Shown: one piece after another, positions 1,959 to 59,828 of the stretch
Numbering within the stretch: position 1 is the stretch's first letter
Layout: every line of letters starts with the position of its first letter
Assembly (NCBI GenBank): GCA_027475525.1
Contig: JAMWFC010000031.1
Coordinates: 372,001-436,000, forward strand
DNA from: Macrolepiota albuminosa
Taxonomy: Eukaryota > Basidiomycota > Agaricomycetes > Agaricales > Agaricaceae
Direction of reading: 5' to 3'
DNA length: 64,000 nt
The notes under the pieces: model-generated
What the model saw: only the letters and a program-made list of their open reading frames with translations
Told to the model about the DNA's origin: nothing
Databases searched by the model: none
Position numbers and translations under genes: made by a program

Positions 1959-4684
1959 ATGGTCGATCCTCGTGGAGATAAAGCACCTGACGTGTCCAGT
2001 CTGGACAGTGGACAGCATGGGGAAACAACAACAAAGTCGTCAACATACTTACCTCCATCCAAGCATGACAAGGGGCGAGAGCCCTCAACCTCGGTCACTA
2101 GTGAAGGGTTTGGAATGCCAGGGGGCCTATCTGTGAAGCGGATGAAGGGGATTCTGACCCTGGCCCCTGGAGGCAGCATTCCAGTAGCCATGTCAACTGG
2201 GGCCAAGGCGGGTCCAGCTGGACCCGAGCAGAAGCAGACAGTATCCTTTTGGGCAGCGGGGCCCAAGGACCAGGTGTTGGGGGCGCTGCAGTCTGAGGAG
2301 GTACGCCTAGGCACCGGAACAGTGGAAAGCTCGCCATTTCGTCTGGCCAAGGCAGAGCAAGTAGGGGGCGAAGGTAGGAAAATGCCCCCACATACAAGGT
2401 CAGGAGCACGCTATGGGGCATCTGTAGTGCGAGCAAGGTCTGTGTTGCATCATGAGGTATGCACCATGGTCAAAGGTGAGCCCGATGGGGAGGGCGATGT
2501 AGCTACATTGCAGGTGAAGGCTGAACAGGAAGGGGACGGTGTAGGTTGCTGAGCATACGTGGAGAATGCGTCCTCAGATGAGGAGGAGCAGGACAGGGTG
2601 TTGTCCACGCTCAGAGTGCAACTGAAGATTGTACTTGCGAAGTATCTGCAGGTGACAAAGAAAACGATGCAAGCACACCTGCAGCTGTATGTGGTAAAGC
2701 ACATCCAGATGATGAGGCGCTGCCAGCAGGCAGTGCCCCCTAAAGAGTCAGAAGGGTATGTCGAGCTGTTTGCTCAAATCTTTGAGCTTGAGTTGCAGCA
2801 GTACTTTGAGTGCAAGAGGATGAGGAGTAGTACGGCGTCTACTGCTACACTGACGAGCTCAGTGGGATATGACTCCCTGTGGTTCAATTGTACCCCAGCA
2901 ATAGAGGAGGCGATGGAACTGCTAGAGGTGCCCAAGAAGGCTAACGAGTCTCAGGAAGACTTTGTTCAGCGGTGTGCTGCTGCCAGCAGGCAGAGATACT
3001 CAACAGGGATGGATAATGAGGGGGAGTCAACAGTCAAAACATTGACACAGGATGTAGCAGGAGGTGTGAGAAGTGAGACAGGGGCAGAATACCACCCAGT
3101 ATAGAGTGAAGGAGTCTCAGACTCTGGGGAAGAAGCAGAGTCACCGCAGGTGCAGGTGGAGCAGCTGAGGCCAGTGAGGCCAGTGGAGCCGCAGCAGAAC
3201 CAGTGGGTGGCAATGGCTGATACTATGGCTGAGCGAGTCAACTTCCAGAGAATGAGGAACCAGGACCTCTGAGTTCAGGGGGGGTCACGGGTAGATGATC
3301 AAGGCATTGTGTTTGAAGGTGCTAATGGCGTGACGCCTGTGGATAACATGCGTCAGCAGTATGTGCAAGGGCAATGGGCCATGGGTGGCCCAAGGCACAA
3401 TAGCACCATGCACAGAGAGGTCAGAGGTGAGAGTTGCGAGTCGACCAGCCAGCAGGCAGCCAGTGGGCGACAGCAGGGGAGCAAGGCAGTGCAATCTGCT
3501 GTGCCTGAGGCATGAGAGAATACGCCTGGGATGAATGAGGCGGCTAGGGCACATAGGGAGAACATGCACAATTGGTTGATCTGCCTGGTGGATGATGCAC
3601 TGGGAGCATGTTTCAATTTTCCTGATGGGGTTAAGCCCTGTAAAGCAGAGGCAAAGACTATACGGTCTTATACTGGGGGTTACCGGTTCTCGCAGCTCAA
3701 GGACTGGGCCATTGACGTGTGCTATCATCTGGCGGCGTGCCGCTATGGGGGAGATGATATGGATCACAAGCGAGTGTTTGTTTTGCAGGAGTTTTTGGAA
3801 GGAGAGGCAAAGGCGTGGTATCGCCACCATATTCTGCATATGAATCGAACGGTCCAGGAGTGGATGTTTAAGGACGTCCTCATTGGACTGTAGAATCAGT
3901 TTGTAAGCCCATTGTTGACTATGCAGAATGCGCGTGAGGCCTTTTGGAAGGCACAGTATAGTGAGAAGACAGGCGTGCAAGGATTTTATGATGTGCTTCA
4001 GGAGCACACTCAGAATTTGGCTGTCTACTCAAATGAGTATACTATACGTGAGGCGTTCCTGGACAGATTGCCCTCGGAGATGAGGAGGTCACTGATCCAC
4101 AATGATAATTTGTCTCTGGAGATCAATACTGTGGATGAATTTTTGGTGTATGCTGTATGATACGAGCAGTCGCTGAAGACGGCAACGCACTATGAGCAGC
4201 GGACGATGAGGCGGCAGACACTTCAGCAGACAGCTGATAAAATTGGCACATTTGTGATGCAGCGAGCTGACCTGGTGTTGGGTAGCATCCCGCAGATTGT
4301 GGTTCATGATGATAGAAAGGGGAATAGGGCTGCCCAACAGGGAGGTGGAGATGAGAAGCCACAAGAAGATCGGGCCAAGAATGAGGGAAACGTGCAGGGC
4401 CAGGGCCAGCTGCATAAAGACGAGGGTGGAGGCCTGAGGGCAGGACTGAAGATCGTGAATAAGGCGAGAACACCTGGGGTCTAGTGATGCTTCAACTGTG
4501 GAGCGTGCAATCATTTTGCGAATTCTCCAAAGTGTCCTCAGTATAGGCCATGGGACAGTATGCAGCTTTGAGCTGCCCATATGGTGGATGGTGGTGATGA
4601 GGAGATGAGTGAGGCCAGCAGCGGGCTGGGAGGGGACTTGGTCACCAAATTGGCTGACAGTGAAGCGAGTGATGATGAATGCGC
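1959..4684 (+). pseudogene. gag: Gypsy-1 gag, one frame with many stop codons
   Basis: From the ATG at 1959 a single reading frame can be followed to the element A junction with stops only and no frame change. Stops lie at about 2550, 3102, 3270, 3513, 3891, 4158, 4482-4487 and 4569. Each can be explained by a transition from CGA, CAG or TGG. The capsid region (about 3530-4200) has the Gypsy pattern ending in a track such as AWYRHHILHMNRTVQEW. A zinc knuckle CFNCGACNHFANSPKC (about 4490-4537) has spacing CX2CX4HX6C instead of the usual HX4C. The frame continues after element A into the protease at 20757. Gag would package element RNA; this copy cannot. Confidence 0.82.
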
Positions 4685-5635
4685 TGATGGGACCCCATAC
4701 AGGTTAGGCGCATCAACGGCAGGCTCGGCACCGGCTCCGGAAACCTTGCCGCACTCGTTCCGAACTTAGCGCACGCGTTCTACCTATTTTAAGCCATTTC
4801 TGACGGCCGCGCACGGCAAGAAGCAGATCCAATCAGTGATAGCGCCGATCGGCAGACAGAATGACAACTGACAGATGGCATCAGTCACTGACGACAGCGC
4901 TTAGCGAGAAGCTTGATGATCTATCAAAAACTGACGGACAGCTTGGCGTTTGACCTTGGCGTCTGACACCGCTTAGCGTCTCGATTTGGCGCCTGACATC
5001 GCTTAGGTGCTCTGACGGACAGAAGGGTGATGGAGTGATGGTTTAGCTTCGCGATCTGTTGCCTGGCGTCGCTAAGGCTCTTGAATGGACGGTAGGGATC
5101 TGAAACCGTTGGAGCTACCCCTTTGAAATTTTCCAGTTTACCGCACTCTGGCGTCATTAGCCACTGGCGACGGCGAACTCATTGTAGTATAAAAGTACTT
5201 ACCGACTTGTACATAGGACGGAGGAGAACAATAGACCACAGTTTACTCCCCTTTCCTCAGTCTCCCTTACGCTCAAGAGCTCATTTACGCTACAGTCGGC
5301 AACGTCAAACTCATCGGCAGTTACAGACGCTCGCCAACACTCGACACACTCGCGCCTTGCAACTACGGCAGGCATTATCGACGCTTAGACTTCGCTAAGC
5401 TTACCGTGCTCTTGCCGCTTACCTTTGCCGTGTTCGCTTACCGCTCTTTCCTAGGCGCTTTACCTTAGCGCTTTACACTTGCCGACCCCGTTACCGACTT
5501 TTACCCTTTTTCACAGACGCGTTCTCTGGGACCTGCCCAGGACTCCTCATATCACTTATAGCGCGCCCAACGCACACTCTTGGTACGGTAACACTTTAGT
5601 TACATTTGTTATTGACCAAACTTTGGGCGTCATCA
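4685..5635 (+). repeat. Element A 5' LTR (951 bp) with TATA box
   Basis: Starts TGATGGGACC and ends GGGCGTCATCA. A clear TATAAAA lies at 5188-5194, so transcription should begin around 5210-5230. It is rich in the words CGCTAAG and TTAGCG. Four differences from the 3' LTR were found by eye, all transitions at CpG dinucleotides. Confidence 0.92.
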
Positions 5636-5656: not shown

Positions 5657-6899
5657 ATCTCTAGGGCAGAATTCCGCCAGAAACCCGTCTCCAGCGTAGG
5701 CGCCGCCTGCTAGACCAGTCGGCAGAAGGCATAGCTCCTTCCCACCCATCAACCCCACAACCACCTGGTGCCTTACTGGGTCTCTCTCTAGCCCAGGAAC
5801 TACAGAACGCCACTGTAGACGCTTTTCCTGATCTCTTCCCGCACTCCCTCGATTATAGTGCCGACGACCCCTTAGCGTCGCCCTTTACCGTACCGCAACC
5901 AATCACCCCCATTACTCCGCTAACGCCCCTTTCACAACTCATTTCTCTTACCCCGTCGCCAATTTCTAGAACTCCTTCCCCACTACCGCTAACCGAACTC
6001 GCCAACACAGTCGCCATGGAACAACAAGTCCAGCGCATGCCGCCACGCAACCACTTCTCGGCACCGAAATGGGACGAGTCCAAGCCACGGGAGCTCTCCC
6101 AGTATTTCAAGGAGTTGGAGTATCTATTCAGAGATTGTAACATTACCGACCACACGCAGATGAAGGAGTACGCGGCAAGATACGTATCATATGACACGGC
6201 AGAAACGTGGACAGGTCTTACCGAGTTTGCTGCCTTTGTCCCTGCCGCACTGCCAGTTCCAGCCCAAGGCGCTTCGTATGAGGACTGGAAGACGGCAGTG
6301 ATCCAGTTGTACCCTGGCGCAGAGGAGGCTACCCGATACACGGTAAACGAGCTCCAGAAACTAGTTCAGGAATCTTTCGACAGTGGCACATCGTCGCTTG
6401 GCGCATTTTCCACGTATTACCGCGAGTTCCAGAAAATCGCTAGGTGGCTTCTGCAGAACGGCAAGCTCTACATTAACGAGGAACGTCGCCTATTTCAGCA
6501 AGGCATCCCGACGTCACTGTGGACTCGTATTGCTCGTCGCCTAGAGATAGTTCATCAGGCCCATCACCCTGATGAGCCCTATAACGTTGCCGACGTCTTT
6601 GAAGCCGGTAAATGGGTTCTCAAGGGAACGGACACTGGCGTTGGACTGCAGCGCGCTAGGACGAGCCCACCACCTGAGCGAACTAACGGTATCATTCCCA
6701 TCCCGCCTCCTGTTGCCGACTTCGTTAAGAAGGAGGAGCTCAATGCTGCCATTACCGCCGCTGTCGCTTCCGCTATGACACGTATCGAAACTATGATCAC
6801 GACCAACCTCACGGCTAACCGACCCACCAACGTACCCGCACCTGGCCCTTGCCACTTCTGTGGGGAAATTGGCCATACTATGACTAGAGGACGCTGCGC

Positions 6900-7884
6900 T
6901 GATGACGCCCAAATCGAGCTGGGCGCTGCGTGGACTATCACTAGTGCAGCTACTTAGCCGATATAGCTTTGGGCGTGCTAAGTGTGTGAGAGAGTCCCGG
7001 ACAGGTCCCAGAGAACACACGGTAGGCAAGAGGTTGGTGGCAAGGAAAGTGGGTAATTGGAGGCACTTGCGTATGGCTCCAAAACGTGGCTACAGTGCGC
7101 TAAAAGTCGCTAAGGGGGAGCGCTAAGAGCGTGGGAAAGTCGCTAAGGAAGGCGCTAAGAGGTGCGGGAAAGGGTCGCTAAGAGGCGCTAAGTGTTAGCA
7201 CCTAGAACGTGATAATAAAAGGATGAGATTGCTTAGCGGATCTAAGCACGAAAGCCAAGCCGTAGTTGCAAGGCGCTAGAGAGAGAGAGATATAGAAAAC
7301 TAGAGCAGAGTCCCCTTGCTTGACACGGTCAACAAGAGGTAGTCTGTTGCGTATGGAGACCAAAATGTTGGGATACGATCCCTACTGCCAAATTGATTCC
7401 CTGTACTACTAACAAAAAGTAGGTATTTATAGTAAAGAAAGTTAGCCGACGCTAAGAGGTTAAGCGCCGCTAGAGGGTGGTGAACTGATAAAAATGTAAG
7501 TAAATGTGGTGAATTGAATTGTATAGTAAAAAGGTCTATAATGATGCTGTCACGGAAATACTTCATCATTTCCCTTTGTAAGCGCTGCCACTGGCTAAGA
7601 GCATTATGCCGGATTGACTGATGCCAAGTGTCTGTGTAAATGTGTAGCCTCGGAGTGCAAGTGGCAAGGTGCGGCAAGGTGTCAATAGTGGTGCGAAGAA
7701 TAAGTGGTGCTATAAAAAGTGGTCTGAGAGTAATTGGAGTCTGTAGCTGCGAGTTATTAGTGTAAAAATATGAGAAAAATAGCGCTGGAAGCGCTAGAGC
7801 GTGGCGCTTCTGGTGGTACTAGTGGGCCTATATGAGGTGTGGGTATTGGTGCGATCTGTAGCCAGCCACGATGCAGGCTCATCA
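6900..7884 (-). repeat. Element B 3' LTR (985 bp)
   Basis: In plus-strand reading it starts TGATGACGCC and ends GGCTCATCA; in element orientation the ends are TGATGAG and GGCGTCATCA. Six CGCTAAG words fall within about 105 bp (7090-7195). This is the undisturbed length; the partner LTR is 77 bp longer. Confidence 0.9.
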
Positions 7885-8279
7885 TCTCCCCCCAACTAAA
7901 ATGCTGACTGTCCTCAGTCACTTTTTCCAAGGGTCGCTAGTCTGAAAGTCAGCAATTGAACAAGTAGTCGGCAAGAAGGGGAATGTAGGTGCTAAGGTGC
8001 GCTAGAAGCTGGCGATGTCGGCAAGGTATAGTGGTGCTAAAAACGTTAGAAACTCAGAGCTAAAATACGAAAAAGATCAAGAATAAACAAAAAGTATAAC
8101 AATGCATGCAAAAATGAAAGATAACTCAAGGGTCAAGTATGTAGCAAACTTGTAGTGATCTTGGCAACAAAATTCAGTATAGGTAGTGGCAAAGATTGTC
8201 TATGAACGTATAGTAAGAAAGCTAATAAAAAGATGACTCAAGAAAGATGACTTAGCAAAATATTGATGTTTTAGTACTT
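7885..8279 (-). other. Element B 3' untranslated region and polypurine tract
   Basis: Between the Gag stop and the 3' LTR no ORF is recognised. The plus-strand TCTCCCCCCAACT directly beside the LTR is a polypurine tract on the minus strand, the primer for plus-strand DNA synthesis. Element A has a very similar tract at 19788-19801, followed by its own LTR. Confidence 0.75.
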
Positions 8280-10355
8280 TCATCCATTTTCTGAAATAAT
8301 GTCGGCAAGCGCTGGTGTTAGCGCCTTATTTGGGGTTCCTAGTGGTCCTTTGGAGGCTATATGGGCGCTAAGAGTAGCGCTGCAAGGTGTGGTAGAGGTA
8401 CTATTGAGGAAACACGTAAAAACGTCGCCAGTAAATGCAAGTTCAGAGAGGTCGTAGTAGTAGTGATTATTGCCCAAGCTGAAAGCGCTAAAGGGAGCGC
8501 TAATGGTAGCGCCTGTATCATCAGAAGGTGCTAAGACAGTGCCTGTTGGTGCGCTTGAGCTGGGAGCTATACCGCAGAGTTCTTTAATTGTTGCTGTAAC
8601 TCGTGTTGTCATAATATGATCCGTCACTTGTTGAGGAGCTTCTAGCTCAAAAACTCGAAATGTCGCCAAGGAATTTGTCCCGAACTGCCTCTGAGGAGCG
8701 CTAAGAGCTGGCACTATGGGCTGGAGGTAGCTAGTAGGCAGGTGATTGCATGGTGGCAAGATAGGTGGCGCTAATGTCATGGTGCTAGAGTTTGCGTTAA
8801 CAAGAACTGAGTCTTCATAGAAGGTGCTAAGGGGTTCTGGAGAGGCGCTAGGGAATGCTGAGGAGGTGCTAGGTGGTGCGCTAAGGCCTGGTGGAGCGCT
8901 AGGGGGCAAACAGCTAGATTTAAAAGGTGCGCTAAGAGGAACACTAGAGCTGTCCTCAATGACAGCAAGATTGGTGGTAACGTCGGGAACTTCAGATTGA
9001 GCTTTCACAGGAGTGTCAAGAGAGGCGCTAGGAGGTTCTGGAGAGGCGCTAGGCAGTGCTGGAGGAGCGCTAGACAATGCGCTAAGAGGTACAGCAATGG
9101 AAGTGTTGACAATGGCTAAGTTAACGTTGGAGGTGCTCTGAGACTTGGATTGAGAAACCATGGATTGCGTCGCTACTGGTGCCCTAGATTTAGTGCTAAA
9201 GCTGGTGCTGGAGGTGCTAAGAGTGGCGCTAGACATTGGCGAGGGGGTGCTAAGGATTGGAGTAGTTTCTGGTGTGGCAATTTCTCCTCGTAATATTGCA
9301 AGTTCGTGTTCAATCTGAGCAATACGTTCCTGGCGTGATAGTCCTATAAACTCCTGCTGAGGGGGTTCCTTGGCGTCCTGATCAGGTCCAAAATAGTAAA
9401 TCTCCTCTATATATGCTTCTGATGGTGAGTCCTGGAGCTGGCTATTTGCTAATGTAGCAGCAAGCCAATTTTCAATTGGCAACATAGCAGTGGCGACGGC
9501 AGCATTGACCTGAGTTTCTAGGTCTTTATAGTCATCGGAAGCGCTAACATTTAGCGCTTGGGTTACTGTGGGAGTGCTAGGAAAACCTCCAGAATGAGTG
9601 CTAAAAGAGCTGGAGGTGCTAAGAGGATCGAAGGTGCTGGAGATGCTGGAGACGCTAAGGGGACTGAGAGTGCTGGCACTAGTAGCGGTACCAGTGAGTA
9701 CCCATTTGCCTGCTTTAAAGACCTGATCAATGTCATAGAGCTCATTGGGATGGTCCATCGGTAGGAGAATCTCTAGGCGACGTGCTATTTTTGTCCAAAA
9801 GGAGGTTGGAATACCCTGCTGAAATAAGCGACGTTCTTCATTTATATATAGTTTGCCATGTTGTCGGAGCCATTTAGAAATGCGTTGGAAGTCACGGTAA
9901 TAGGTAGAGAATGTGCTGAGAGTGTGCAGGCCAGTGGCAAAGGTGTCCTGTACTAGCTGCTGGAGGTCGCTAAGCCTATAACGGGTGGATTCTTCTGCGC
10001 CAGGATATAAATTGATTACTGCTGTCTTCCAATCTTGGTAGCTAGATTGGCCAGGTGCTAAGGGGTCTGGAGAAGCGCTAGACGCAGGTGCTAAGGTGGC
10101 AAATTCCGGTAAACCTGTCCAACATTCTGCGGTGTTGTAGGAGACATAACGGATAGCGTAATTCTTCATTTGGACATTGTCGGTAACACCACAATCACGG
10201 AAAAGGTGCTCTAGTTCTTGGAAGTACTGGGGTAACTCGCGTGGGTTGGCTTCATCCCATTTGGGTGCGGCAAAGTGATTCCGACTGGGCATATAAAGGA
10301 GCGGTGCTTGGCTCATAGTAGGAGTAGCAAGAGTACGCATGGGGATAATCGGCAA
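8280..10355 (-). CDS. gag: Element B Gag-like protein (691 aa)
   Basis: This intact ORF is a homologue of element A Gag: PSRNHFAAPKWDEANPRELP, YPGAEESTRYRLSDLQQLVQ and LYINEERRLFQQGIPTSFW align without gaps to A. The part after residue about 230 is rich in Ser, Thr, Ala and Pro. The zinc-knuckle segment of A is missing. Two later blocks that flank A's protease boundary are kept (EERIAxL-like SRQERIAQIEHELA, and KELCGIAPSS). The ORF stops before any DSG protease motif. It probably makes particles or helps package its own RNA, with enzymes supplied by A-type elements. The ATG at 10355 follows the primer-binding site by about 150 bp. Homology is clear; the packaging role is inferred. Confidence 0.85.
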   Translation of the reverse strand: MPIIPMRTLATPTMSQAPLLYMPSRNHFAAPKWDEANPRELPQYFQELEHLFRDCGVTDNVQMKNYAIRYVSYNTAECWTGLPEFATLAPASSASPDPLAPGQSSYQDWKTAVINLYPGAEESTRYRLSDLQQLVQDTFATGLHTLSTFSTYYRDFQRISKWLRQHGKLYINEERRLFQQGIPTSFWTKIARRLEILLPMDHPNELYDIDQVFKAGKWVLTGTATSASTLSPLSVSSISSTFDPLSTSSSFSTHSGGFPSTPTVTQALNVSASDDYKDLETQVNAAVATAMLPIENWLAATLANSQLQDSPSEAYIEEIYYFGPDQDAKEPPQQEFIGLSRQERIAQIEHELAILRGEIATPETTPILSTPSPMSSATLSTSSTSFSTKSRAPVATQSMVSQSKSQSTSNVNLAIVNTSIAVPLSALSSAPPALPSASPEPPSASLDTPVKAQSEVPDVTTNLAVIEDSSSVPLSAPFKSSCLPPSAPPGLSAPPSTSSAFPSASPEPLSTFYEDSVLVNANSSTMTLAPPILPPCNHLPTSYLQPIVPALSAPQRQFGTNSLATFRVFELEAPQQVTDHIMTTRVTATIKELCGIAPSSSAPTGTVLAPSDDTGATISAPFSAFSLGNNHYYYDLSELAFTGDVFTCFLNSTSTTPCSATLSAHIASKGPLGTPNKALTPALADIISENG

Positions 10356-10502
10356 GTAGTAGCCACGGCAAGTGGCAAGCGTATATCAAAAATGTTGTAA
10401 AGGGGGTGCAGCAAGGCACCAGGAAACTGTGGTAAGGTTGCCAACTGCGCTAGCAGCTAGCTACTCTAGAGGTGGGTTTCTGGCGAAATCTGTCCTAAGA
10501 TA

Positions 10503-10520
10503 CCCTCGCGGTGGGCTCCA
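10503..10520 (-). other. Element B primer-binding site
   Basis: Reverse complement of the element A site, identical over 18 bases, and three bases from the end of B's 5' LTR (10524). The shared site implies the same tRNA primer. Confidence 0.8.
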
Positions 10521-10523
10521 ATA

Positions 10524-11585
10524 TGATGACGCCCAAATCGAGCTGGGCGCTGCGTGGACTATCACTAGTGCAGCTACTTAGCCGATATAGCTTTGGGCGT
10601 GCTAAGTGTGTGAGAGAGTCCCGGACAGGTCCCAGAGAACACACGGTAGGCAAGAGGTTGGTGGCAAGGAAAGTGGGTAATTGGAGGCACTTGCGTATGG
10701 CTCCAAAACGTGGCTACAGTGCGCTAAAAGTCGCTAAGGGGGAGCGCTAAGAGCGTGGGAAAGTCGCTAAGGAAGGCGCTAAGAGGTGCGGGAAAGGGTC
10801 GCTAAGAGGCGCTAAGTGTTAGCACCTAGAACGTGATAATAAAAGGATGAGATTGCTTAGCGGATCTAAGCACGAAAGCCAAGCCGTAGTTGCAAGGCGC
10901 TAGAGAGAGAGAGATATAGAAAACTAGAGCAGAGTCCCCTTGCTTGACACGGTCAACAAGAGGTAGTCTGTTGCGTATGGAGACCAAAATGTTGGGATAC
11001 GATCCCTACTGCCAAATTGATTCCCTGTACTACTAACAAAAAGTAGGTATTTATAGTAAAGAAAGTTAGCCGACGCTAAGAGGTTAAGCGCCGCTAGAGG
11101 GTGGTGAACTGATAAAAATGTAAGTAAATGTGGTGAATTGAATTGTATAGTAAAAAGGTCTATAATGATGCTGTCACGGAAATACTTCATCATTTCCCTT
11201 TGTAAGCGCTGCCACTGGCTAAGAGCATTATGCCGGATTGACTGATGCCAAGTGTCTGTGTAAATGTGTAGCCTCGGAGTGCAAGTGGCAAGGTGCGGCG
11301 AGGTGTCAATAGTGGTGCGAAGAATAAGTGGTGCTATAAAAAGTGGTCTGAGAGTAATTGGAGTCTGTAGCTGCGAGTTATTAGTGTAAAAATATGAGAA
11401 AAATAGCGCTGGAAGCGCTAGAGCGTGGCGCTTCTGGTGGTACTAGTGGGCCTATATGAGGTGTGGGTATTGGTGCGATCTGTAGCCAGCCACGATGCAG
11501 GCTCATCATTCTGGTGGTACTAGTGGGCCTATATGAGGTGTGGGTATTGGTGCGATCTGTAGCCAGCCACGATGCAGGCTCATCA
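10524..11585 (-). repeat. Element B 5' LTR (1062 bp including a 77 bp duplication)
   Basis: Matches 6900-7884 except for one G/A change at a CpG (about 11299) and a tandem repeat of its last 77 bp (11432-11508 and 11509-11585). Without the extra copy both LTRs are 985 bp. Confidence 0.9.
11432..11585. repeat. 77 bp exact tandem duplication 1
   Basis: Bases 11432-11508 and 11509-11585 are identical. The duplication ends exactly at the LTR/Gag junction. Confidence 0.95.
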
Positions 11586-12114
11586 GCGCTACCCTCGAGA
11601 ATTACGTTCGCCAAGGTAGAATTCGAAGGGCTATCGACGGCAAGATAGTTCTTACCACTGGCGCCACCATCCCCAACTACCCCGACAAGAAGTCCTTCCA
11701 GGAGCGAGTTGATGAGTGGCATAGGCGCAACCCAGGACAAATCGTTACCGGCACGCTATCTGGCAACGCCAACCCCGACCCTGAACAGGCGACCCAACAG
11801 CAGATGATTCACGAGGTCTTACACTTTGACAGCGTTGGCGACCACCCTACTTTCTCGCGGGAAGAGCGTATCGCCAAGCTGCAGCAGGAATTAGATTCGC
11901 TAAAGAACCAGGTCTTTGATGGGGTTGAAGTTAAGCAGCCTAAACAACCTCTTAAAGGATACAAGCCGATGCCTCCCGCTAGCAAGTTACCGACACCTGC
12001 TCCTGCCGCACCTCCTGCCACTGCCCCTGCTCCTGCTTCAGAACCACCGTCGTCCGCTACCGCTCCCGAACCACCTTTGCCGCCTCTACATCCCTACTCA
12101 GGGATTCCCGACCG

Positions 12115-12268
12115 TTATCATGCTCCCGCACAACGAAACTTTGCCGCTCCCGAGAAACGTCCTGAGGGTGGCTACCGACCAACCGCGCCAATTATCATGC
12201 TCCCGCACAACGAAACTTTGCCGCTCCCGAGAAACGTCCTGAGGGTGGCTACCGACCAACCGCGCCAA
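12115..12268. repeat. 77 bp exact tandem duplication 2 (breaks element A gag)
   Basis: Copies at 12115-12191 and 12192-12268 are identical. Removing one restores the gag-protease frame. Confidence 0.95.
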
Positions 12269-13067
12269 TATTTGACATCGAGAAATCTAACCACGTCTTT
12301 AACCGTATCATGAAAACCCACGTCACCTTGTCAGTAGAAGAACTTTGTAGTATTGCTCCCGACGTCCGCAACCAAGTCAAGACGGCAGTCACTCCCCGAC
12401 GACCCTTGGCGACAGCCGTTGCCGAGGTCGAGGATCTCGACGACGCGCTCCCTGGTTTTTCTGTTACTATCGACTCTCTAGACACTGAAGATACTCCTGC
12501 CGACCCTATCGCTAACGCTACCTCTGTGGATCCAGTGGAGACCTACCTTAGGTCGGTAGACCATGGAGAGGACCCAGCAATTCTAACCGTCGCTCAAGAA
12601 TCGCACGCTATCCGCTCGGTAGCGCTAACTGTAGACAACAAGCACGAGGTAGAGGCAATCGTGGATAGCGGGTCTCAGATTATTTCTATGGCAGCAGAAG
12701 TCGCTAACGATCTAGGCCTTATTTACGACCCTACCGTTATACTAAACATGCAGAGCGCTAACAGTACGGTGGACAGATCTCTAGGCCTCGCCAAGAATGT
12801 GCCGTGCACCCTTGGCGACATCACTTTTTATCTTCAGATACACATCTTACGTTCACCAGCTTACGACCTACTACTTGGCAGACCCTTCGACGTCTTGGCG
12901 CGATCAGTCGTCAAGACAGTTACCGACGAGGAAACGACCCTCACAATTAGCGACCCCAATTCCGGAATCCGACGAACGGTGCCAACGTTCCCTAGGGGAC
13001 AACGAAAAGGCGCCCGCGCTAAGCCCCCGGAGTTTACCGACCAACACGCCAACGAGCCTCCCCACTG

Positions 13068-16000
13068 GTGTTTTCACAGACCATTGAGGAGGTGATTGGC
13101 GACGATCACGGAGATGTGGCGCTAACGCTGGAATTTGACCATTCAACTGGTCTTGTAACTGTTTTGTCTACTGCTTTTCTTGACGAAGATATTTTAACTA
13201 CATTACCCACTACCGACGCAGAGCCTTCCCAGAAAAATCAAAATATTACCGACTCCTCTCTTGCCTACTTATATCTTACCGCTTCCGAGTCATTTCAGAA
13301 TATTGCGTCTACCGACACCTATCTCACTACTCTTCCCGGAGCCTCGTCTCCTGCCGTTCTTGGACTTGCCGCTCCTCAGGCTACAGTTCCCCTTTCCACC
13401 TCTGTATATAACCAAGCTAACGCTCCCAAAAGGAAAGGGGTTCAAGTTAAAAAGAAATATAAGCCAGTTGCGCTTAAAACAAAGCCCATCGCTACGCACT
13501 CTCCCGAGACGTTTAGAATCGAGCGCCAGATCATTGGCGACCCTCTTGCCGACATGCCAGCCTTATCACCGAATCCGCCACCCTTTCAGCCCACAGGACG
13601 TTTTACCGAGGAACGCCAGCAGCAGTTCGCCAAGGAGCACGACACAGGATTTTTGACCAAAGATGAGTTAAACGTCCTTACCGATCTTGTCGCTAAGCAA
13701 GACAAAGCCTTCGCTTGGGAGGACTCCGAACGCGGCAGCCTACGTACAGATTTCTTCCCGCCTGTTGTAATCCCGACTATTCCTCACGTGCCGTGGACTG
13801 AGCACAACCGACCGTTACCGCCTGGGATCGAAGCCGAGGTCTGCCAGATTATTAGGACCAAGATACAGGCTGGCGTCTACGAGCCCTCAAACAGTTCTTA
13901 CCGCTCCCGTTGGTTCTGTGTCCTCAAAAAGAACGGCAATCTACGCATAGTTCACAGTCTTGAGCCGCTGAATAGAGTTACCATACGACACTCTGGCGTA
14001 CCGCCTTTCCCTGATCACTTTGCCGAGTCCTTTGCCGGGCGCATTTGTGGCGCCACCCTTGACCTCTACGTTGGCTACGATGAACGCTTAATCCACCCTT
14101 CTTCCCGCGACCTCACTACATTTCAAACTCCGTTCGGCGCCTTGCGCCTAGTCACTTTACCGATGGGCTGGACAAACTCAGTCCCTATATTCCACGACGA
14201 CATCACTTTCATCCTCCAACCCGAGATACCGCATAACGTCCTTAGCTTCATCGACGACGTTGGCGTCAAAGGCCCCAAAGACTGGCGACTCGTAAACGGC
14301 TTACCGGCAACCCATCCCAACAACTCCAACATTCGCTTAGCGCTATGGGACTTTTTCCAGCTGCTCAATCGAGTTCTCCAACGTATGAAGTATAGCGGTG
14401 GTACCTTTAGCGGTCACAAACTTCTTCTTTGCGCGCCTAGGTTCAAAATACTAGGTCACATCTGCACTCCTGACGGTCGCGTTCCCAACGAGTCTCGCTT
14501 AGCACTCTTGGAGCGCTGGGGTCCTTGCCGCGACTTATCTGAAGTTCGCGCCTTTCTTGGCACCGTTGGCGTTCTTAGAATATTCGTCAAAAACTTTGCC
14601 CATCGCGCACACGCCCTTAACCGACTCACCCGCGCCAACGAGCCCTTCGAATTTGGGCCAGACCAGGTTACCGCACAACGAGACTTAGTAAAAGCTCTAC
14701 AAGACGCCAAACCCCTAGTCCCCATCGATTATACCTCTGCCGACCCTGTTATCTTGGCGGTGGATACCTCGTACATTGCCGTTGGCTACTTTTTGTGCCA
14801 GTGCCTTAGCGACAATCGGAAACAGCGATGCTACAACTGCTTTGGGTCTATTACGCTAAACGATCGAGAATCTCGCTACAGTCAGCCTAAGCTAGAGCTC
14901 TATGGACTCTTCAAAGCCTTCCGGTCGCTAAAGATGTATTTGATTGGCGTGCGGAACCTTATTGTTGAGGTCGACGCTAGGTACATCAAGGGCATGCTGC
15001 AGAATCCCGATATCCAGCCATCCGCTAGCATGAATCGGTGGGTAGTCGCTATCCTCATGTTTCACTTTGAGCTGGTACACGTCAAGAGCTCTTTCCACGG
15101 CCCAGATGGACTTTCTAGGCGACCACGGCAGCCTGGCGACCCGGCAGTGGACCCACAGGCTGATAGCCTTTCCACGGCCCAGATGGACTTTCTAGGCGAC
15201 CACGGCAGCCTGGCGACCCGGCAGTGGACCCACAGGCTGATAGCGATTTTGAGGATTGGATCGACCGACTACATGGTTTCGTGCACCTCATACAACAGCC
15301 AATCCCCCTACTACGACGGCAACAGCCTACCAGCGTATTTCTACATCCCATTATCCCTTACCGCCCCGAGACCTTTAGCGCACCCCTCACATTCTACACG
15401 GCAAGCATCCTTGGACAAGACTTGCCTCCAGTAAAAGTCGTACAGGAACCCCAGTCGCTAAGAGAAGACAGCAGAAACCTGACCTACGATGCCGTTCCCC
15501 GATCCGCCAAGGCAAAGGCGGAAGATAGTCGCCTGTTAGTAGTCGAGCAATGGATACAAGACCTTAAGCGACCCCCAGACCTTACCGACGAACAATACGC
15601 TACCTTTATCCGATATGCTACCCACTTCTTCTTTACCGACAACCGACTTTGGCGACGAAATCGAGATGGCGCTCACAAGCTGATCATCAAGCCAGAAGGT
15701 CGCTTACGAGTCCTGCGCGCCATGCATGACGAGCTAGGCCATAGAGGTCTGTACGCTACCCGCGCCTCTCTGTTAGAACGATTCTGGTGGCCACACGCTA
15801 GTGCCGACGTCGCTTGGTACATCAGGACTTGCCACCTCTGCCAGATTCAACAGACACGCCAAGTGCTCATTCCGCCAACCGTGGCAACGCCAGCTCCCCT
15901 TTTCAGCAAAATCTACGTCGACACTATGCATATGCCCAAGTCTGGTCGCTACAAGTACATCATTCAAGGTCGTTGCTCGCTAATCCACTGGCCTGAGTTT

Positions 16001-16894
16001 CGCATGCTGCAAAGAGAAAATACCGACGCGGTCGCCAAGTGGCTATTTGAGGACGTCATTTGCCGTTGGGGAGCGCTAAGAGAAATCGTCACGGATAACG
16101 GTGCGCCCATCATCAAAGCGCTAACTTACCTCGCCAAGAAATACAACATACACCACATTCGAGTATCTGGCTACAACAAACGCGCCAATGGCCTGGTAGA
16201 GAGACCACATTTTGACGTTCGGCAAGCGCTCTTTAAGGCAGTCGATGGCGACGAGTCTCGTTGGAGTGAGGCAACATATTCAGTATTCTGGTCAGAGAGG
16301 GTTACCATTCGTAAGCGCATGGGTTGCTCTCCCTATTACGCGGCTACTGGCACCCATCCGTTACTCCCTGCCGACATTATAGAAGCGACCTATCTTCAGC
16401 CAGCACCCAACAGCATCTTAGCGACTACCGACCTTATCACCAGACGAGCCATTGATCTCCAGCGAAGAAAAGAAGATTTGGAGCGACTTCACGAGGTAGT
16501 TTTTAGCGCCCGTCGCCAAGCAGCCCTACGATTCAAAACCGAGCATAGCGCCACTATCAAAAATTACAACTTTCCGAGAGGAGCGCTAGTGCTTATGCGC
16601 AACTCCAAAATTGAAACCTCATACAACAAGAAAATGCGCCCGCGCTATCTTGGACCTTTGGTAGTTATCTCCCGTAACCGTGGAGGCGCTTACGTGCTCT
16701 GTGAACTAGATGGTTCAGTGCTACATCGACCTGTTGCCGCCTTTCGTCTATTGCCGTATCTCGCCAGAGAACACATTGACTTGCCGCTTGAAGCGCTAGA
16801 TATCGACACCGCCAAGTTAAGAGAACTTGAGGAAACCGAACTATTGGACGATGATGACTTGCCGACTTTAGTTGAAGAAGAAGAAAACGATTAG
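13068..16894 (+). CDS. pol: Element A pol: reverse transcriptase, RNase H, integrase
   Basis: RT spans about 13,850-14,600: RSRWFCVLKKNGNLRIV, motif A TLDLYVGYD, LPMGWTNS, and the catalytic FIDD where most Gypsy elements have YVDD or FIDD-like forms. RNase H (14,740-15,120) starts ILAVDTSYIAVGYFL. Integrase has an HX4H...CX2C zinc site (HDELGH, then CHLC) and a DDE triad in YVDTMHMP, IVTDNGAP and LVERPHFD (15,920-16,210). A GPLVVI...GAYVLCELDG tail resembles the GPY/F module. A 77 bp tandem duplication (15091-15244) breaks the frame; without it the ORF is continuous, about 1249 residues. The start relative to gag-pro is in the -1 frame, so expression probably needs a frameshift. No ATG start is evident. 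Confidence 0.9.
15091..15244. repeat. 77 bp exact tandem duplication 3 (breaks element A pol)
   Basis: Copies at 15091-15167 and 15168-15244 are identical. Removing one joins RNase H to integrase in one frame. Confidence 0.95.
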
Positions 16895-17317: not shown

Positions 17318-19632
17318 TCAGTCTTCACGATCGGAAAGCGGCAAGGAGTCGTCGAATGGCAGAAGGTCGCCAACCTGGACCTGATTGAGGACTTGCCACT
17401 CTAGCGCCTCGTTGCAGTCGGCTTGGTATTCCTCCAGGGTCTCCATGCTACGGGTCAAGTTGGAGTACCTGAGTCGCGAAGCCATGATCTGTTGACGAGC
17501 GCGTTCGCGCTCGCGACCCAAAACCGCACGCATGCTTGCCGCACGAACCCCCAGCCGCTCTATAACCTGAGGCGGGTAAAGGGCCACCACGGGATACACC
17601 AAGTCCTCCCCCAGCCACTCGTAAGAGTCGCCAGTGACTCGTGGCTGAGGCTGGGGGGTCCACGACGAGGGCCCACTCGAGCTCGTCCAGAGCTGTGTCG
17701 CCAAGTCGCCTTCACTTACCCAGGGGGCGGCAGGCTCCACCGTCGGCAACTCCTGGGACTCGCCAGGACCGTCCCGCAAAGTCTCCTCCAACTCCCCCTC
17801 AGCATCCTCATTGCCGCCCTCTTCCTCCTCGCGGCTTGGCGACCCTTCCCTTTTCTCCTCCTCCCCGGCCAACTCCTGTGCGCCAGCGGGCTCCCCCATT
17901 ACCACGTCACCCTCATCTCCTGGGGCGCCAGCAGTCGAAACATCGTGTGGCGCGTCTTCAGGCAAAGAGAGAGGGGACAGTAGGCGGCTGGGGCCAGCCT
18001 CACCGCTAACGGGAGGAAGGCGGCTGGCGGCAAGAGCTTCTCCAAGCTCCCTCATCTCCGTGTCCTCAGCAATTGGAGAGGGGGAGGGCGACTCGATACG
18101 TACGCGCTTGGCCTTACCCTTGCCCTTGCTTGGGGAGGAGGCCTTGCGCTTTTCTTGGCGCTCGCCAGCGCCGCGCTGTCCGACCGATTCCGATTCATCT
18201 CCTTGGCGCGTCGGCAGCGCCAAGGAGGACTTGCTGATCTTCGCCGCTCTCCCAGCGGCAACCTCCCTACGTTCCCCCTCGACAAACTCCCTAGCCCGCT
18301 TGACCAAAACCGCCCGGGAAAAGGTCTTCTCGACAAAGGCATCAGGCGCCCCGCCACGCTCACGACTCTTGGCACCGTCGATTGTGCAAGCACGCTTGAG
18401 AGTGCCGCAGCGGTAACAGGGTTGGGCGCCAGTGGGGAACCAGCAACTTTCTGGGTCGTTATCGGCCCAACATTTGTCACACTACTTTGCTTGAGAACAA
18501 AAATCATACAAAAAGGCTAAGACAACTTACCGCTCCACGCGAATCTTTGAACTCCTGGCGCGTCGCCAGGGAAACCGTGCGCTTGTTCTTCATCTCGGGA
18601 ATCTCCACTCCTCCCTCGATGCCCTCGTCCATCACTACATCTTCCCGGCGCGGCAAGAGCAGACCCTTCAACTCCTTGTCGTCGAAAGTAGTCTGACTAG
18701 GGAGCTGGGAGAGAGTCAGTAGAAGGTCGGCAAAGTGTCACGACGGCGTACCTCGTATTGAGGACCCTTCCCCTTGCGAGACTAGCGACAGTTACCACCG
18801 GTAAGAAGAAGCGCCAACGACAGCAGACTTACCTTTTTCTTCAAAGCCTTTCCAGGCTTTGAAGGCGAACCCTGTGTGCCTGCCGGCAGTGTGGGGCTCT
18901 GAACACTGCCGGCGCGAGACCCCTTGCTGGAACCCTCGGCAACGGACTCCTTCTTCTGCTCCTTGGCGAGCTCTGCCCTCGCCACCGCCAAGGAGTGCGC
19001 GGCAGCGGCAGCGGCAGCCTCCTCCTGCTCTTGCTCGATCTGCAATCGAGCAAGAGGCTCCAGTACCTCTTGCTTGCTACGAGGGGAGTGGCAGCCTCCT
19101 CCTGCTCTTGCTCGATTTGCAATCGAGCAAGAGGCTCCAATACCTCTTGCTTGCTACGAGGAGATAATTCAGTCCATAGCTAGGGAAGGAAAGGTCAGGA
19201 GATACTCACTCGGTTGCCGATGCGCTTACAGTCATCGGCAACGCGCCAGAAAGGATGTCCTCCAGCTCATCTTCGATGGTGGGGACAGGGGGAGGCACCT
19301 AGAGAGCAATCAGCTTAGCGACATGCCAGGCAAAAACAACAACTTACAAAGCGGGAGAAGGGCGCTAACCACTCAGCACCACGATTGTCGACATACCGTG
19401 CGCGGCACCACTCCCGCACCTCGATCTCGCGGTCCCACCCAACGCCAAGGACTCTCACCTCATACCACCTCTCCAGCAACTTCATCACGCCAACCACCAA
19501 GTTTTGAGACGCCTCGGCGCCAACGCCCTCGATATGCCGAATGAAACGGTTTGCCTTGGCGATGTAGGCGTATGCGGCTTCTTGAGCAGCTTGAGATGGG
19601 ACGGGGGGCGGAGTTGGAATACGGAAGGACAT
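17318..19632 (-). CDS. Spliced antisense gene in element A (about 661 aa, Zn2Cys6-like cluster)
   Basis: Six minus-strand exons fit with canonical GT-AG borders: 19632-19348, 19298-19210, 19076-18833, 18781-18752, 18704-18531, 18481-17318. Introns are 46-56 bp except intron 2, which is 133 bp because of a 77 bp duplication and would be 56 bp without it. Donors are GTAAGT, GTGAGT, GTAAGT, GTACGC and GTAAGT, and the frame stays open throughout. The protein begins MSFRIPTPPPVPS. It then has an acidic/Ala-rich coiled stretch (IEQEQEEAAAAAAAH), a Lys/Ser tract, and a Cys cluster opening the last exon: CDKCWADNDPESC, then CYRCGTLKRAC, spacing CX2CX8CX8CX2CX6C, like a fungal binuclear zinc cluster. 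A basic nuclear-type tract (KRKASSPSKGKGKAKRVR) and an acidic tail follow. Being antisense, its introns are not removed from the element's genomic RNA and so survive retrotransposition. DNA or RNA binding is a guess. The 30 bp exon 4 is the least certain. Confidence 0.75.
19014..19167. repeat. 77 bp tandem duplication 4, slightly diverged
   Basis: The unit at 19014-19090 repeats from 19091 with the same 77 bp period, but with two internal substitutions and a changed end. It duplicates the splice acceptor of antisense exon 3. Confidence 0.88.
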
Positions 19633-19787
19633 ATTTTTATTGTTGAGCGCCAGAAAAAGATGGGGAGAAGAAACAAAGTCCAAATTCACGCGCCAGGACT
19701 ATAAACAAAATTTCAAGAACGCACGGACCACCTGTCACAAAAGCGATAACGGTAGCCTTATTTGGTGACTGAGGACAGTCAATTTTT

Positions 19788-19801
19788 CAGTTGGGGGGAG
19801 A
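19788..19801 (+). other. Element A polypurine tract
   Basis: CAGTTGGGGGGAGA lies immediately before the 3' LTR start at 19802, the normal place for the plus-strand primer. Element B has the same kind of tract on its own strand. Confidence 0.8.
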
Positions 19802-20752
19802 TGATGGGACCCCATACAGGTTAGGCGCATCAACGGCAGGCTCGGCACCGGCTCCGGAAACCTTGCCGCACTCGTTCCGAACTTAGCGCACGCGTTCTAC
19901 CTATTTTAAGCCATTTCTGACGGCCGCGCACGGCAAGAAGCAGATCCAATCAGTGATAGCGCCGATCGGCAGACAGAATGACAACTGACAGATGGCATCA
20001 GTCACTGACGACAGCGCTTAGCGAGAAGCTTGATGATCTATCAAAAACTGACGGACAGCTTGGCGTTTGACCTTGGCGTCTGACACCGCTTAGCGTCTCG
20101 ATTTGGCGCCTGACATTGCTTAGGTGCTCTGACGGACAGAAGGGTGATGGAGTGATGGTTTAGCTTCGCGATCTGTTGCCTGGCGTCGCTAAGGCTCTTG
20201 AATGGACGGTAGGGATCTGAAACCGTTGGAGCTACCCCTTTGAAATTTTCCAGTTTACCGCACTCTGGCGTCATTAGCCACTGGCGACGGCGAACTCATT
20301 GTAGTATAAAAGTACTTACCGACTTGTACATAGGACGGAGGAGAACAATAGACCACAGTTTACTCCCCTTTCCTCAGTCTCCCTTACGCTCAAGAGCTCA
20401 TTTACGCTACAGTCGGCAACGTCAAACTCATCGGCAGTTACAGACGCTCGCCAACACTCGACACACTCGCGCCTTGCAACTACGGCAGGCATTATCGACG
20501 CTTAGACTTCGCTAAGCTTACCGTGCTCTTGCCGCTTACCTTTGCCGTGTTCGCTTACCGCTCTTTCCTAGGCGCTTTACCTTAGCGCTTTACACTTGCC
20601 GACCCCGTTACCGACTTTTACCCTTTTTCACAGACGCGTTCTCTGGGACCTGCCCGGGACTCCTCATATCACTTATAGCGTGCCCAACGCACACTCTTGG
20701 TACAGTAACACTTTAGTTACATTTGTTATTGACCAAACTTTGGGCGTCATCA
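19802..20752 (+). repeat. Element A 3' LTR (951 bp)
   Basis: Same length as 4685-5635. It differs at four positions seen by eye (near 20116, 20657, 20690 and 20704), each C/T or G/A in a CpG context. Its left part may also serve as promoter region for the antisense gene that starts 170 bp away. Confidence 0.92.
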
Positions 20753-23700
20753 GCGCGGTGGAGAAGGATGATGAGTTGATGACTGTGGATGTGTACGCCA
20801 ATGATTACTATAGTCACGATAGCAACTTGGAACACTTGGTGGCGCTCATGGACTACTCAGAGGATGAGTATGATTGTCCAGAAGGGGACTAGCATGTTCA
20901 AATGCGGCAAGTAACGCTGCATAAGACCTTAATGAAGCTGAGTCGCCCGAGGTATAAGCGAGATGAGAAGGCATGTCTGTTGACATACGTGAATGTGAAT
21001 GGTAGTCCTGCATGGATGTTGTGGGACTCGGGAAGTACCACGTCAGGAATCACACCCCAGTTTGCGCATGTGCACCAGATTCATGTTAACGAATTGGAAG
21101 AGCCCATAACTCTCCAGTTGGGGATAGTGGGCAGTAGGTCAGTAGTCCAGTTTGGGACGAAGGCCAGGGTGGCCATGGGAGGGGTGTCCATGAAAGAGTA
21201 CCTCAATGTAGCACACTTTGATTGCTATGACATGATTATTGGTACGCCATTCATGTGCAAGAATGGAGTCCTACTGGACTTTAGCAAGGATGAGGTAGTC
21301 GTTAATGGTGAACGACTGAAGGCAGAGCAAGTGGTCTTGGAAGACATGGATGGACGCCTGCATCAACAGAGGGCGACCGAGAAGCGTCGCGACGAGAACT
21401 GACTCCATGGTCGCCAACGCAAGGTGGCAGTGGAGGAGATGAAAGAGGAAGTTGAGCCTGTAGCAGTCTACCAGTGAATTTGCCATGCCTGATGATGACT
21501 GAGGAGGAGTTTCAGGCGGGTCGAATGGCTCAGCCTGAGACAGTGAGGAATGGGGATGCTGGAGTGGAGATGAGGTGCACGGTGTGAGCGTCGAGAGAGT
21601 GCCAACCAATGACATCGAAGGTCAAAGTAGAGGACCTTGTAATGGAGGAAGAGGAGCAGCAATGGGCCATGGAGGCGGCGTCAGTAGCAGGTGCCGGGTG
21701 CACCCTGTGGGACCGGCCCTGTGTTGTGCCCAAGGTGCAATGGGCCTATGACCTGCGGATGCCACGAGAGTGGAACAAGCTGGTGGCATCAATGTGCGTC
21801 TGCAATGTACACAGGGGGTCTAGTAGAGGCGAGGTGTATCGCCTAGCTACTCCGGATAAAGTGTCAGCACCTTCGGAGATTAGGTTCGAGGGGGTGGCGC
21901 AGTCAGCGCTGGGGCTGCTACTGCGACTGAACATTGGAGATTGCAGCGCTGAGTGCCTGCAGGTGCTCAATGACAGGTTTTGCAGGCACCCATGGGGAGT
22001 GGTGGACAGACACTGACCGGCTGACAAAGGCAAGAGGCCAGGGGTGGATGTGGAGCTGCTGTGCCAGCGGTGGCAGAGGGAATATGCCAATATTGTCAAT
22101 GGGACAAAGGAGGAGTTGCCTCCCTGGAGGGATGTCAATCATGAGATAAATCTCATTGATGATGGCAAGCGGTATAAATATCATCTGCCTCACTGTCCAC
22201 AAGCGTTGCAGGACCAGCTGTGGGACAAGACCAACTGTTACTTGAATGCATGTTGGTGGGAGGCAAGGCCGGCGGTGCAGGTGACGCCACTGTTGTGCAT
22301 TCCCAAGAAGGATGGGACATTGCACACCGTGATAGGCTTCTACTTGGACTGAGCGCATCAAGGCACATTATAGGTTGACCAACACTTGACACACTGGAGA
22401 CTCTAGTGACCAGCTTGGGGTACAGAGCAGCCCTAGCGCTGGTGCTCTATGGCAAGACTTATCCATTTATCTTAAACACCAGTAGCAGCCCCTCAGCATA
22501 CTCCACTCATTTATTTTGAAGACCAAGGAGGCTTAGAACCACTAGCACAACAGAGGGAAGCTGATTCTGACCAAACCCCGATCAATACCGAAAGGAGTTA
22601 GCAATTGGCGCTGTCAATCACCGAGGTGCTTCAATCAGAAGTCTAAAGAAATCAATGACGATGAGACAGGATACATGCAGACCCGACATTTAAATCTATC
22701 AAAAGATGGTACAATGTTAGTGCCGGGACTAGCGCTCACGGCGTCTGTCGAGGATTCTCTGACCATATCCTGGGATGGCATGGCCAATTTAATTACATCA
22801 AAAAGTGAGCAAATTCGTATCATTTCTAAGTAGTTTTAGAGTCGCCGTTGGTCGCCATCACCCATGTGCTGCAGGTCGCCATTGACAGGTGGCCATTAAC
22901 TACAACCACAAGGAGAGGCGCTAATTGGTAGCACCGTCAATGGACTTATTTTGGAAATACCGTAGTGCATAGTATAAAAACTAGCTATTTGCCATGTATA
23001 TAGCAACGAATCGTAACCTCTTGAGCACCCAGTTACACTTAGCGTTCAAATCACACTAGTATTGCCTGACTTTGTCACTAAGTTTGGTGCTAGCTTCGTC
23101 TATCTCGTCTTCATCGCTTACGGTGCTACCTACAGGCACACTACGCTGCGCTATTCGCTTTATTCTCTATAACTTCTCCTAAACTATGATGCTTACCACT
23201 TGTTAGGTAGCACCTGAGGTTCTATCATATAGCGCATCACCCTATCACCTCTGCTCAAGCACACCGGGACCCTGCTGGGACTCCTCACAAACCCGCACAC
23301 CAGGCACTGGAGACGGCGTTGTACTGCATATATGTCCAGCGCACCCAACCACAGTTGGCATCATCAACAGCGCTGGATGCACAGCAGTGCAATGATAACA
23401 CTGTTAAGGACGTGACACCCCTGCCAGACTAGGAGGTCATCTGGGAGGATGTGGCTCAGGCAAAGGTGTGGTCAAAAATTGACCTGACTGATGCGTATGA
23501 GCAGGTGCACATATATACGTCCGACATACACAAGACGCTGTTCACGTCACCCATGGGGACGTTTGTGAGTAATATTATGCAGATTGGCAACTGTAATGCG
23601 CTGGCAACGTTTCAGAGGTTGGTGACCTCAATATTTTGTGATGTTATCAGGAAGTTCATGCATGTGTACTTGGATGACATATTTATATTCTTGGACTCCA

Positions 23701-45148: not shown

Positions 45149-45314
45149 ATGGCTCGGTGCTGCATCTATCATACTGCAGAAGAAAGACGACTTGCAGCTA
45201 ATGCTAAAAGCCGGAGATCTTACCATAAGTGAGTCCTTTAGTGCTCCAATTAGGTCGAAAATTAATCATATAATCCATGGACTCTGTAGGAACAAGATGG
45301 TTATCTGTACCCGC

Positions 45315-59170: not shown

Positions 59171-59679
59171 AGTATCATTTCCAAGTCAAGGCTCACATTC
59201 TGACATCAAGTGCTTATGTTAGATATATGCCTAAAGGACATCTTATTCTTAGGCTTCAACTCTCCTTATTGTCTTTTCCACCATTCCAGAGGTCATTACA
59301 GTTGAATCCCTAGTTTCCCATGCTGTTTGCACAATATGTACTGCTGTACTCAAGAGGTACCCACCGGAGAAATCCGAGGTACGAGGTTGGGGGAGGGGGG
59401 GGGTACCGAGGGTCTTAAACATGAAAATTTTTTAGCCAGAATCTATGCTTGCAGAGCTTATCCTGGGTTGTCAGACACATTAATTCACATTGATTATGAG
59501 TATTTAATGTGTACAGAGCATGAAATAAGCATTGAAGTCAAATTGAAGTCCAAATTTGGTAATAACAGTGACATTATGATGTCATATGATGGGCAATTTT
59601 CGTACCTAAACCCTGTATTTGCCCTGTATACTTCAAGGGTAGCCAGTGCACTATCTACAATTTTGACTGTACTCAGCTG
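59171..59679. other. No recognised gene
   Basis: AT-rich. A plus-strand ORF of 117 codons (59327-59680) has no motif and overlaps a poly-G run near 59,390-59,402; it might be the front of the PHD relic that follows, but this cannot be shown. Confidence 0.35.
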
Positions 59680-59828
59680 AAATAGCTCATGATAATGTCC
59701 CTTGTTCAACCTGTGGAATGACAATTAAAGAGAAGGATTTGCTCCTATGTGAGCTGAAATAGCTCATGATAATGTCCCTTGTTCAACCTGTGGAATGACA
59801 ATTAAAGAGAAGGATTTGCTCCTATGTG
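59675..59828. repeat. 77 bp exact tandem duplication 9
   Basis: Copies at 59675-59751 and 59752-59828 are identical, inside the PHD relic. Confidence 0.95.

Follow-up and report, generated by a model that had tools for sequence, protein, structure and literature searches.

The window, that is, the whole 64,000-nucleotide stretch of DNA analyzed here, lies on contig C79 of a genome searched over 100,137,612 bases in 129 contigs, and contains an LTR retrotransposon, element A, delimited by two plus-strand long terminal repeats at 4685..5635 (5′ LTR) and 19802..20752 (3′ LTR). Self-BLAST of the window showed that the two repeats measure 951 nt each and are 99.6% identical. Their edges reveal TG..CA ends—the 5′ LTR starts with TGATGGG and ends with CATCA—and a GCGC target-site repeat on both outer sides, directly in front of the 5′ LTR (4681-4684) and directly after the 3′ LTR (20753-20756). 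According to Pfam, pol is laid out on the plus strand in Gypsy order, protease, reverse transcriptase, RNase H, and integrase: an aspartic protease region (12166..13095; PF13975, E 1.6e-7) is followed by a reverse transcriptase/RNase H frame (13023..15434; PF17917, E 1.7e-11, and PF17919, E 1.3e-10, with RVT_1 matching at E 8e-4, below its cut-off) and an integrase frame (15167..16894; PF17921, E 9.5e-16). The RT_RNaseH and Integrase_H2C2 matches exceed the Pfam cut-offs. Judged by its LTRs and by the order of its pol domains, element A is a Ty3/Gypsy-type LTR retrotransposon from a lineage with many copies in this genome. The open frame behind the 5′ LTR (5665..6957, plus strand), for which a Pfam search returned no match, is probably the start of gag in view of its position. 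At 6900 it enters a nested LTR element (6900..11585) that splits the front part of this copy of element A. The insertion, also delimited by self-BLAST, has LTRs of about 986 nt and GCGC flanks at 6896-6899 and 11586-11589; it shares its primer-binding-like sequence with element A, and that sequence points to the opposite (minus) orientation. One long frame (8280-10385, minus strand, 701 aa) without a convincing Pfam match is found within it. The insertion may be a non-autonomous relative of gag type, and another LTR-like sequence of this kind stands alone at 45312-46376. The GCGC flanks of both elements may reflect a target preference.

An antisense gene is located on the minus strand between integrase and 3′ LTR, exactly where the original prediction had placed it, running from an ATG at 19632 to a stop at 17318. 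Its six exons, joined as the window stands, form one frame of 1986 nt encoding 661 aa plus stop, in agreement with the roughly 661 residues that had been proposed. Exon 1 (19632-19348) carries the ATG and encodes a 95-aa N-terminal domain predicted as four helices (pLDDT 86), a fold for which searches returned no informative match. Exon 2 (19298-19210) and exon 5 (18704-18531) follow from the copy alignment and the joined translation, and exon 4 (18781-18752) comprises 30 nt. Exon 3 is in frame at 19076-18833, within a region (18833..19153) that includes a 77-nt near-exact tandem duplication. Exon 6 (18481-17318) opens with the cysteine pattern CX2CX8CX8CX2CX6C, whose segment is folded at a pLDDT of about 40, and continues through the basic and acidic low-complexity tracts also noted in the prediction to a coiled-coil-like C-terminal end and the stop, tracts and coiled coil being judged by eye. 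The introns measure 49, 133, 51, 47, and 49 nt in the window copy. All five are of the GT-AG type, as expected, and the expected length of about 50 bp holds for four of them (47-51 nt) but not for intron 2, which reaches 133 nt because the duplication, identical at up to 73 of 77 positions, sits where exon 3 begins. This duplication is absent from 28 of the 29 other copies compared, the exception being L015; without it, intron 2 measures 56 nt (54 nt in the chimeric copy L034), and under the 56-nt model the window copy is out of frame. The 169-nt leader between the ATG and the 3′ LTR (19633..19801, minus strand) contains a polypurine tract, a TATA-like TTTATAG, and a pyrimidine tract, its identity amounting to 0.82-1.0 per 20 nt among 19 chosen copies of several types; it includes a candidate antisense promoter.

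Eight exact 77-nt tandem duplications occur elsewhere in the window (11432-11585, 12115-12269, 15091-15244, 39988-40142, 45991-46144, 49234-49388, 52217-52372, and 59675-59829), two of them within the pol frames, and 77-nt inserts were found in many other gene copies as well. They are probably overlaps of length k left by the assembler, and given their number in the window, the duplication in exon 3 is most likely caused by assembly, too.

When the genome was searched with exon 6 at the DNA level and the best 40 of 413 candidates were scored, at least 40 places showed an identity of 87% or higher across most of the query; three more short pieces matched at 79-89%. The first 30 places (L009-L038, L009 being the window copy) were aligned. 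Judged by its structure—unrelated sequence and an opposite-direction LTR upstream of an exon 6 that is 90% identical—L034 is a chimeric or rearranged copy. In the other 29, which all contain the five introns, indels lie in the predicted introns or the leader, apart from the 77-nt inserts and four exonic events: a 12-nt deletion in L014, an 18-nt insertion in L024, a 4-nt deletion in L036, and a 2-nt deletion in L038, two of the four being multiples of three. Most of the 30 copies have retained their splice sites. Exceptions are intron 1 of L031 and L037, which starts with ATAAGT, and intron 3 of L023, L025, L026, L027, L030, and L031, which is off the common columns. In the two of these that were printed, L023 and L025, intron 3 is displaced to a position three bases earlier and can hardly be aligned; it looks replaced although both adjacent exons are well conserved, and the remaining four show the same pattern. 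Spliced at the common columns, 16 of the 30 copies can be read through without interruption, 15 of them giving 661 aa and L014 657. The open copies include L031, which lacks the GT of intron 1, while L025, L026, L030, and L031 are one codon shorter if their own intron 3 is used. Among the 14 copies that are not open, eight are broken by an exonic 77-nt insert—under the common-column model this includes the window copy—and five by a stop or a small indel (L023, L024, L036, L037, and L038); the fourteenth is the chimeric L034. The frame postulated from the window is thus conserved in other copies, with exons that are largely free of indels.

Comparing dN/dS among copies had been suggested as a check against neutral decay. 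It was carried out on 19 copies differing by at least 1%, chosen from the 29 that remain when L034 is left out. Across the gene frame, dN is 0.039 and dS 0.279, yielding a dN/dS of 0.138; exons 1-6 give 0.07, 0.10, 0.13, 0.11, 0.10, and 0.17, with exon 1 the lowest. Codon positions 1, 2, and 3 differ by 0.055, 0.034, and 0.200. Four of the other five frames have ratios of 1.3-2.7, and the 0.24 of the fifth, an opposite-strand frame, can be taken as a by-product of the third positions that the frames share; on the opposite strand of exon 6, the three frames contain 2, 7, and 10 stops (counted in L012). Introns 1-5 differ by 0.15, 0.08, 0.31, 0.09, and 0.24, and the leader by 0.07. Since introns 2 and 4 and the leader (0.07-0.09) vary no more than the exon average (about 0.10), not every non-coding part evolves freely. 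Over the 171 pairs formed by the same 19 copies, the dN/dS of the gene comes to 0.112 and that of the integrase end to 0.070, so that the gene is constrained, yet less than integrase. Ratios of 0.11-0.14 denote purifying selection and not neutral decay. Given that indels avoid exons, that splice sites are kept, and that the low dN/dS is specific to one frame, the conserved exon-intron frame is, on comparative grounds, more than chance. The constraint on the spliced antisense frame would mean that copies with a working gene left more offspring. The preservation of the protein by evolution, which the copies demonstrate, suggests that the gene is needed by the element.

The association of the gene with the element extends beyond the window. 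In 29 of the 30 aligned copies, the ATG is preceded by a correctly oriented LTR edge with 76-100% identity to the window LTR, and integrase lies downstream of the gene in all 30. The motif at the start of the cysteine cluster, CDKCWADNDP, searched as a DNA pattern with up to three mismatches, was found at 692 places in the genome and at none in a reversed control. Among the zero-mismatch loci, the first 30 on the list (L039-L068, of which L045 is the same place as L016) contain exons 5 and 6 throughout and exon 1 in 27 cases, the best-match identity of exon 6 to the window ranging from 49 to 100%. Exon 6 is open for at least 380 codons in 16 of these loci and shorter in 14. Leader/LTR sequence precedes exon 1 in 27 (78-97% identity), which, together with the LTR beside the ATG in 29 of the aligned copies, is the placement of an antisense accessory gene of the aORF-3R kind. 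In all 30 motif loci the cluster codon is immediately preceded by AG, and 28 of them have a donor site 46-51 nt upstream. Intron-less copies were seen neither among the 30 aligned copies nor among the 30 motif loci. The proposal that antisense introns travel intact is borne out by the five introns in 29 of the 30 aligned copies and by the last intron in 28 to 30 of the 30 motif loci, and such retention is as expected for replication through sense RNA; the antisense gene shows how a retroelement can retain a multi-intron gene. From the opposite direction, 17 of 40 full-length LTR places were checked against the listed motif places. Eight have the motif in antisense 1.25-1.39 kb inside. Of the nine without a listed motif, four are the distal member of an LTR pair and the motif accompanies the near member, two lie on contig C79 outside the listed motif places, and three have no motif among those places. 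Five motif loci (L040, L047, L050, L064, and L066) look decayed by eye, showing R to C/H/Q and E to K changes, a pattern expected from C-to-T mutation of silenced repeats.

Four loci chosen for their diverged genes, which fall into two types by eye, were read further. Their exon 6 proteins are 54-67% identical, and dS reaches 1.0-1.6 in exon 1 and 1.5-2.4 in exon 6, values near saturation and hence imprecise, at a gene dN/dS of about 0.04-0.15. Their integrase proteins, in contrast, are 91-98% identical with a dS of 0.25-0.33, and leader/LTR identity is 86-96%. By these measures, ancient gene variants sit next to a younger shared pol. In nine diverged loci, identity is at least 0.93 in 24 of 27 alignment windows of 100 nt between 19700 and 19984, amounts to about 0.4-0.86 inside the gene, and increases once more across roughly 200 nt beyond the stop. 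The integrase windows of the four loci read further mostly lie at 0.88-0.98, but L070 can no longer be aligned below 16.1 kb. Within exon 6 of L052 and L062, one stretch is back at 0.78-0.90, suggesting that exchange takes place inside the gene as well. Gene and integrase trees of the 19 close copies reject each other (AU p 1.4e-51 and 2.6e-5), and the pairwise dS values of gene and integrase correlate at 0.145. The rise in divergence near the gene edges suggests that gene variants have been swapped between elements by recombination during reverse transcription. LTR elements recombine between co-packaged RNAs in reverse transcription, and such recombination would be the natural reading of the discord between gene and integrase, with faulty repeat assembly as its rival. 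By eye, variation is greatest in the long acidic and basic tracts, while exon 1 and the cysteine cluster have changed less, as would be expected for a protein with a common target and a variable partner region.

The sequence itself establishes the gene, its exon map, its position in the copies examined, the purifying selection on its protein, and the strongly diverged variants next to close integrases. It is reasonably likely that, in this lineage of Ty3/Gypsy elements, the six-exon antisense accessory gene encodes a trans-acting LTR regulator or an anti-silencing factor. A promoter in the leader or in the 3′ LTR would drive transcription of the gene, and the antisense RNA would be spliced at five introns. 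The sense genomic RNA would keep these introns, since their reverse complements are not introns, and via this RNA the whole gene would be copied at each transposition. The protein would be nuclear and act through its zinc-bound cysteine cluster on transcription from the element's LTRs or against silencing, following a logic like that of HBZ/APH or VANC. Regulation or anti-silencing appears to be the most likely function, and the element probably needs the antisense protein for control of its own activity. A bolder extension, tentative and on balance doubtful, is that the gene constitutes an exchangeable specificity module: while pol is shared and the LTRs less closely so, ancient versions of the gene would be swapped and held apart by selection for rarity, directed against host silencing or rival elements. 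If true, this would give a retrotransposon a system of types resembling that of mating types or immunity alleles.

The same divergence of the gene, but not of the adjacent integrase, could also arise if the protein were an effector or anti-silencing factor targeting host proteins and not LTR DNA, its variants lasting because host silencing adapts to common ones. The variable acidic and basic tracts next to a better-kept exon 1 and cysteine cluster would fit such a role. It is nevertheless considered unlikely, for dN/dS is low in every exon (0.07-0.17), indicating no rapid adaptive change at that level; the fold of exon 1 is uninformative in this respect. Assembly offers a different account of the mosaic, in which the gene is real and its types stem from separate lineages wrongly joined to a common integrase. 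This account is compatible with the other readings, and the exact 77-nt duplications and inserts do represent assembly faults in repeats, so that the apparent recombination between copies may in part be mis-assembly. However, all four integrases sampled next to diverged genes fall within one and the same close group, contigs reach several Mb, and mis-joins would have to hit near the gene edges every time, which leaves a wholly artefactual mosaic rather improbable. 

Another explanation holds that the antisense RNA itself has the main function, as dsRNA or in the control of sense RNA or copy number, the protein being secondary. Antisense transcripts of retroelements can indeed act as RNA according to a review (PMC7264820), and the low divergence of introns 2 and 4 and the leader would agree with this. 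The constraint follows codons, though, with third positions differing by 0.20 versus 0.034 at second positions, and indels avoid exons, while an RNA role alone would leave the spliced reading frame unprotected; this explanation is already disfavored and has very little probability. Slightly less credible still is a host gene family recently caught by the element and carried as a passenger. Its introns are typical of host genes, and an origin from a host locus long ago is possible. A recent passenger is at odds with the element context in 29 of 30 close copies and 27 of 30 motif loci, with the selection visible among element copies, and with homologues that are several and diverged in three Termitomyces strains.

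An accessory protein of the element, serving as regulator or anti-silencing factor, remains the preferred reading. Two protein searches for relatives of the antisense protein, evaluated for the best candidates by shared words, yielded at least 21 and at least 16 matches, all of them hypothetical proteins from these three Termitomyces strains, up to 684 aa in length and with the same order of parts where long enough. Relatives of the reverse transcriptase are far commoner (1355 at E ≤1e-100; the few names in the 120 listed include Sphagnurus, Meripilus, and Mycena). Taken together, these relatives indicate that the host is probably a mushroom-forming species close to Termitomyces. A Pfam search with 12 family members gave no convincing family match and five weak ones. 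The original prediction had likened the cysteine cluster to a fungal binuclear zinc cluster. The Zn2Cys6 pattern (Zn_clus, PF00172) reads CX2CX6CX5-12CX2CX6-8C. While the predicted spacing is present and the likeness holds for six cysteines in two halves, with CX2CX6C as the second half in both, the first half of the antisense protein is CX2CX8C, and 0 of the 12 members match the Pfam model at E up to 1; membership is therefore rejected. The same applies to Retand TRP28, whose Transposase_28 domain (PF04195) is not among the five weak matches, and to the bZIP family of HBZ, with no bZIP match in the 12 members.

Although reports of antisense genes in LTR elements go back years, no role is known for them (PMC7264820). 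Genes in this position are already known from the plant elements Grande, RIRE2, and Retand and from Boty of Botrytis; the original prediction had mentioned antisense ORFs in plant Gypsy elements. Within the literature searched, four features appear to be new: a structure of five introns whose constraint has been measured, a protein family with a cysteine cluster, a host that is probably a basidiomycete, and the disparity between gene and integrase. With hundreds of motif places in one genome, an exon map, measured selection, and an old, diverse gene set against a younger, close integrase, the question of how an antisense gene benefits its element becomes testable in a fungus.

Among comparable systems, the plant aORF-3R genes (Grande gene23, RIRE2, and Retand TRP28) resemble the gene of element A as extra genes lying antisense between pol and 3′ LTR, and they are kept in most copies and in several species (PMC7264820, PMC11963269). 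The portions of these sources consulted report an own promoter for the Grande gene and suggest nuclear location or DNA binding for aORF-3R products; they differ from the present case in their plant hosts and in TRP28 or SMC domains, with no mention there of a cysteine cluster or of introns, as opposed to the five introns of the element A gene (PMC7264820, PMC11963269). The Boty-like elements of Botrytis are fungal elements reported to carry the antisense gene brtn between pol and 3′ LTR (PMC7264820, PMC8365987, PMC4227169). Boty, however, resides in an ascomycete and has a chromodomain in gag-pol (PMC4227169). HBZ of HTLV-1 and APH-2/3/4 are described as products of spliced antisense RNAs from genes near the 3′ LTR, as mostly nuclear, and as acting on LTR transcription (PMC10186651). 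Stemming from human retroviruses and being bZIP or unrelated proteins, they share logic and arrangement with the present gene, and no homology is claimed. The VANC anti-silencing proteins of VANDAL transposons, finally, are likewise element-encoded accessory proteins that have evolved into variants between related elements (PMC5735166). In these plant transposons, the targets are reported to vary considerably among related elements (PMC5735166), whereas in the element A lineage, leader and LTR vary less than the gene.
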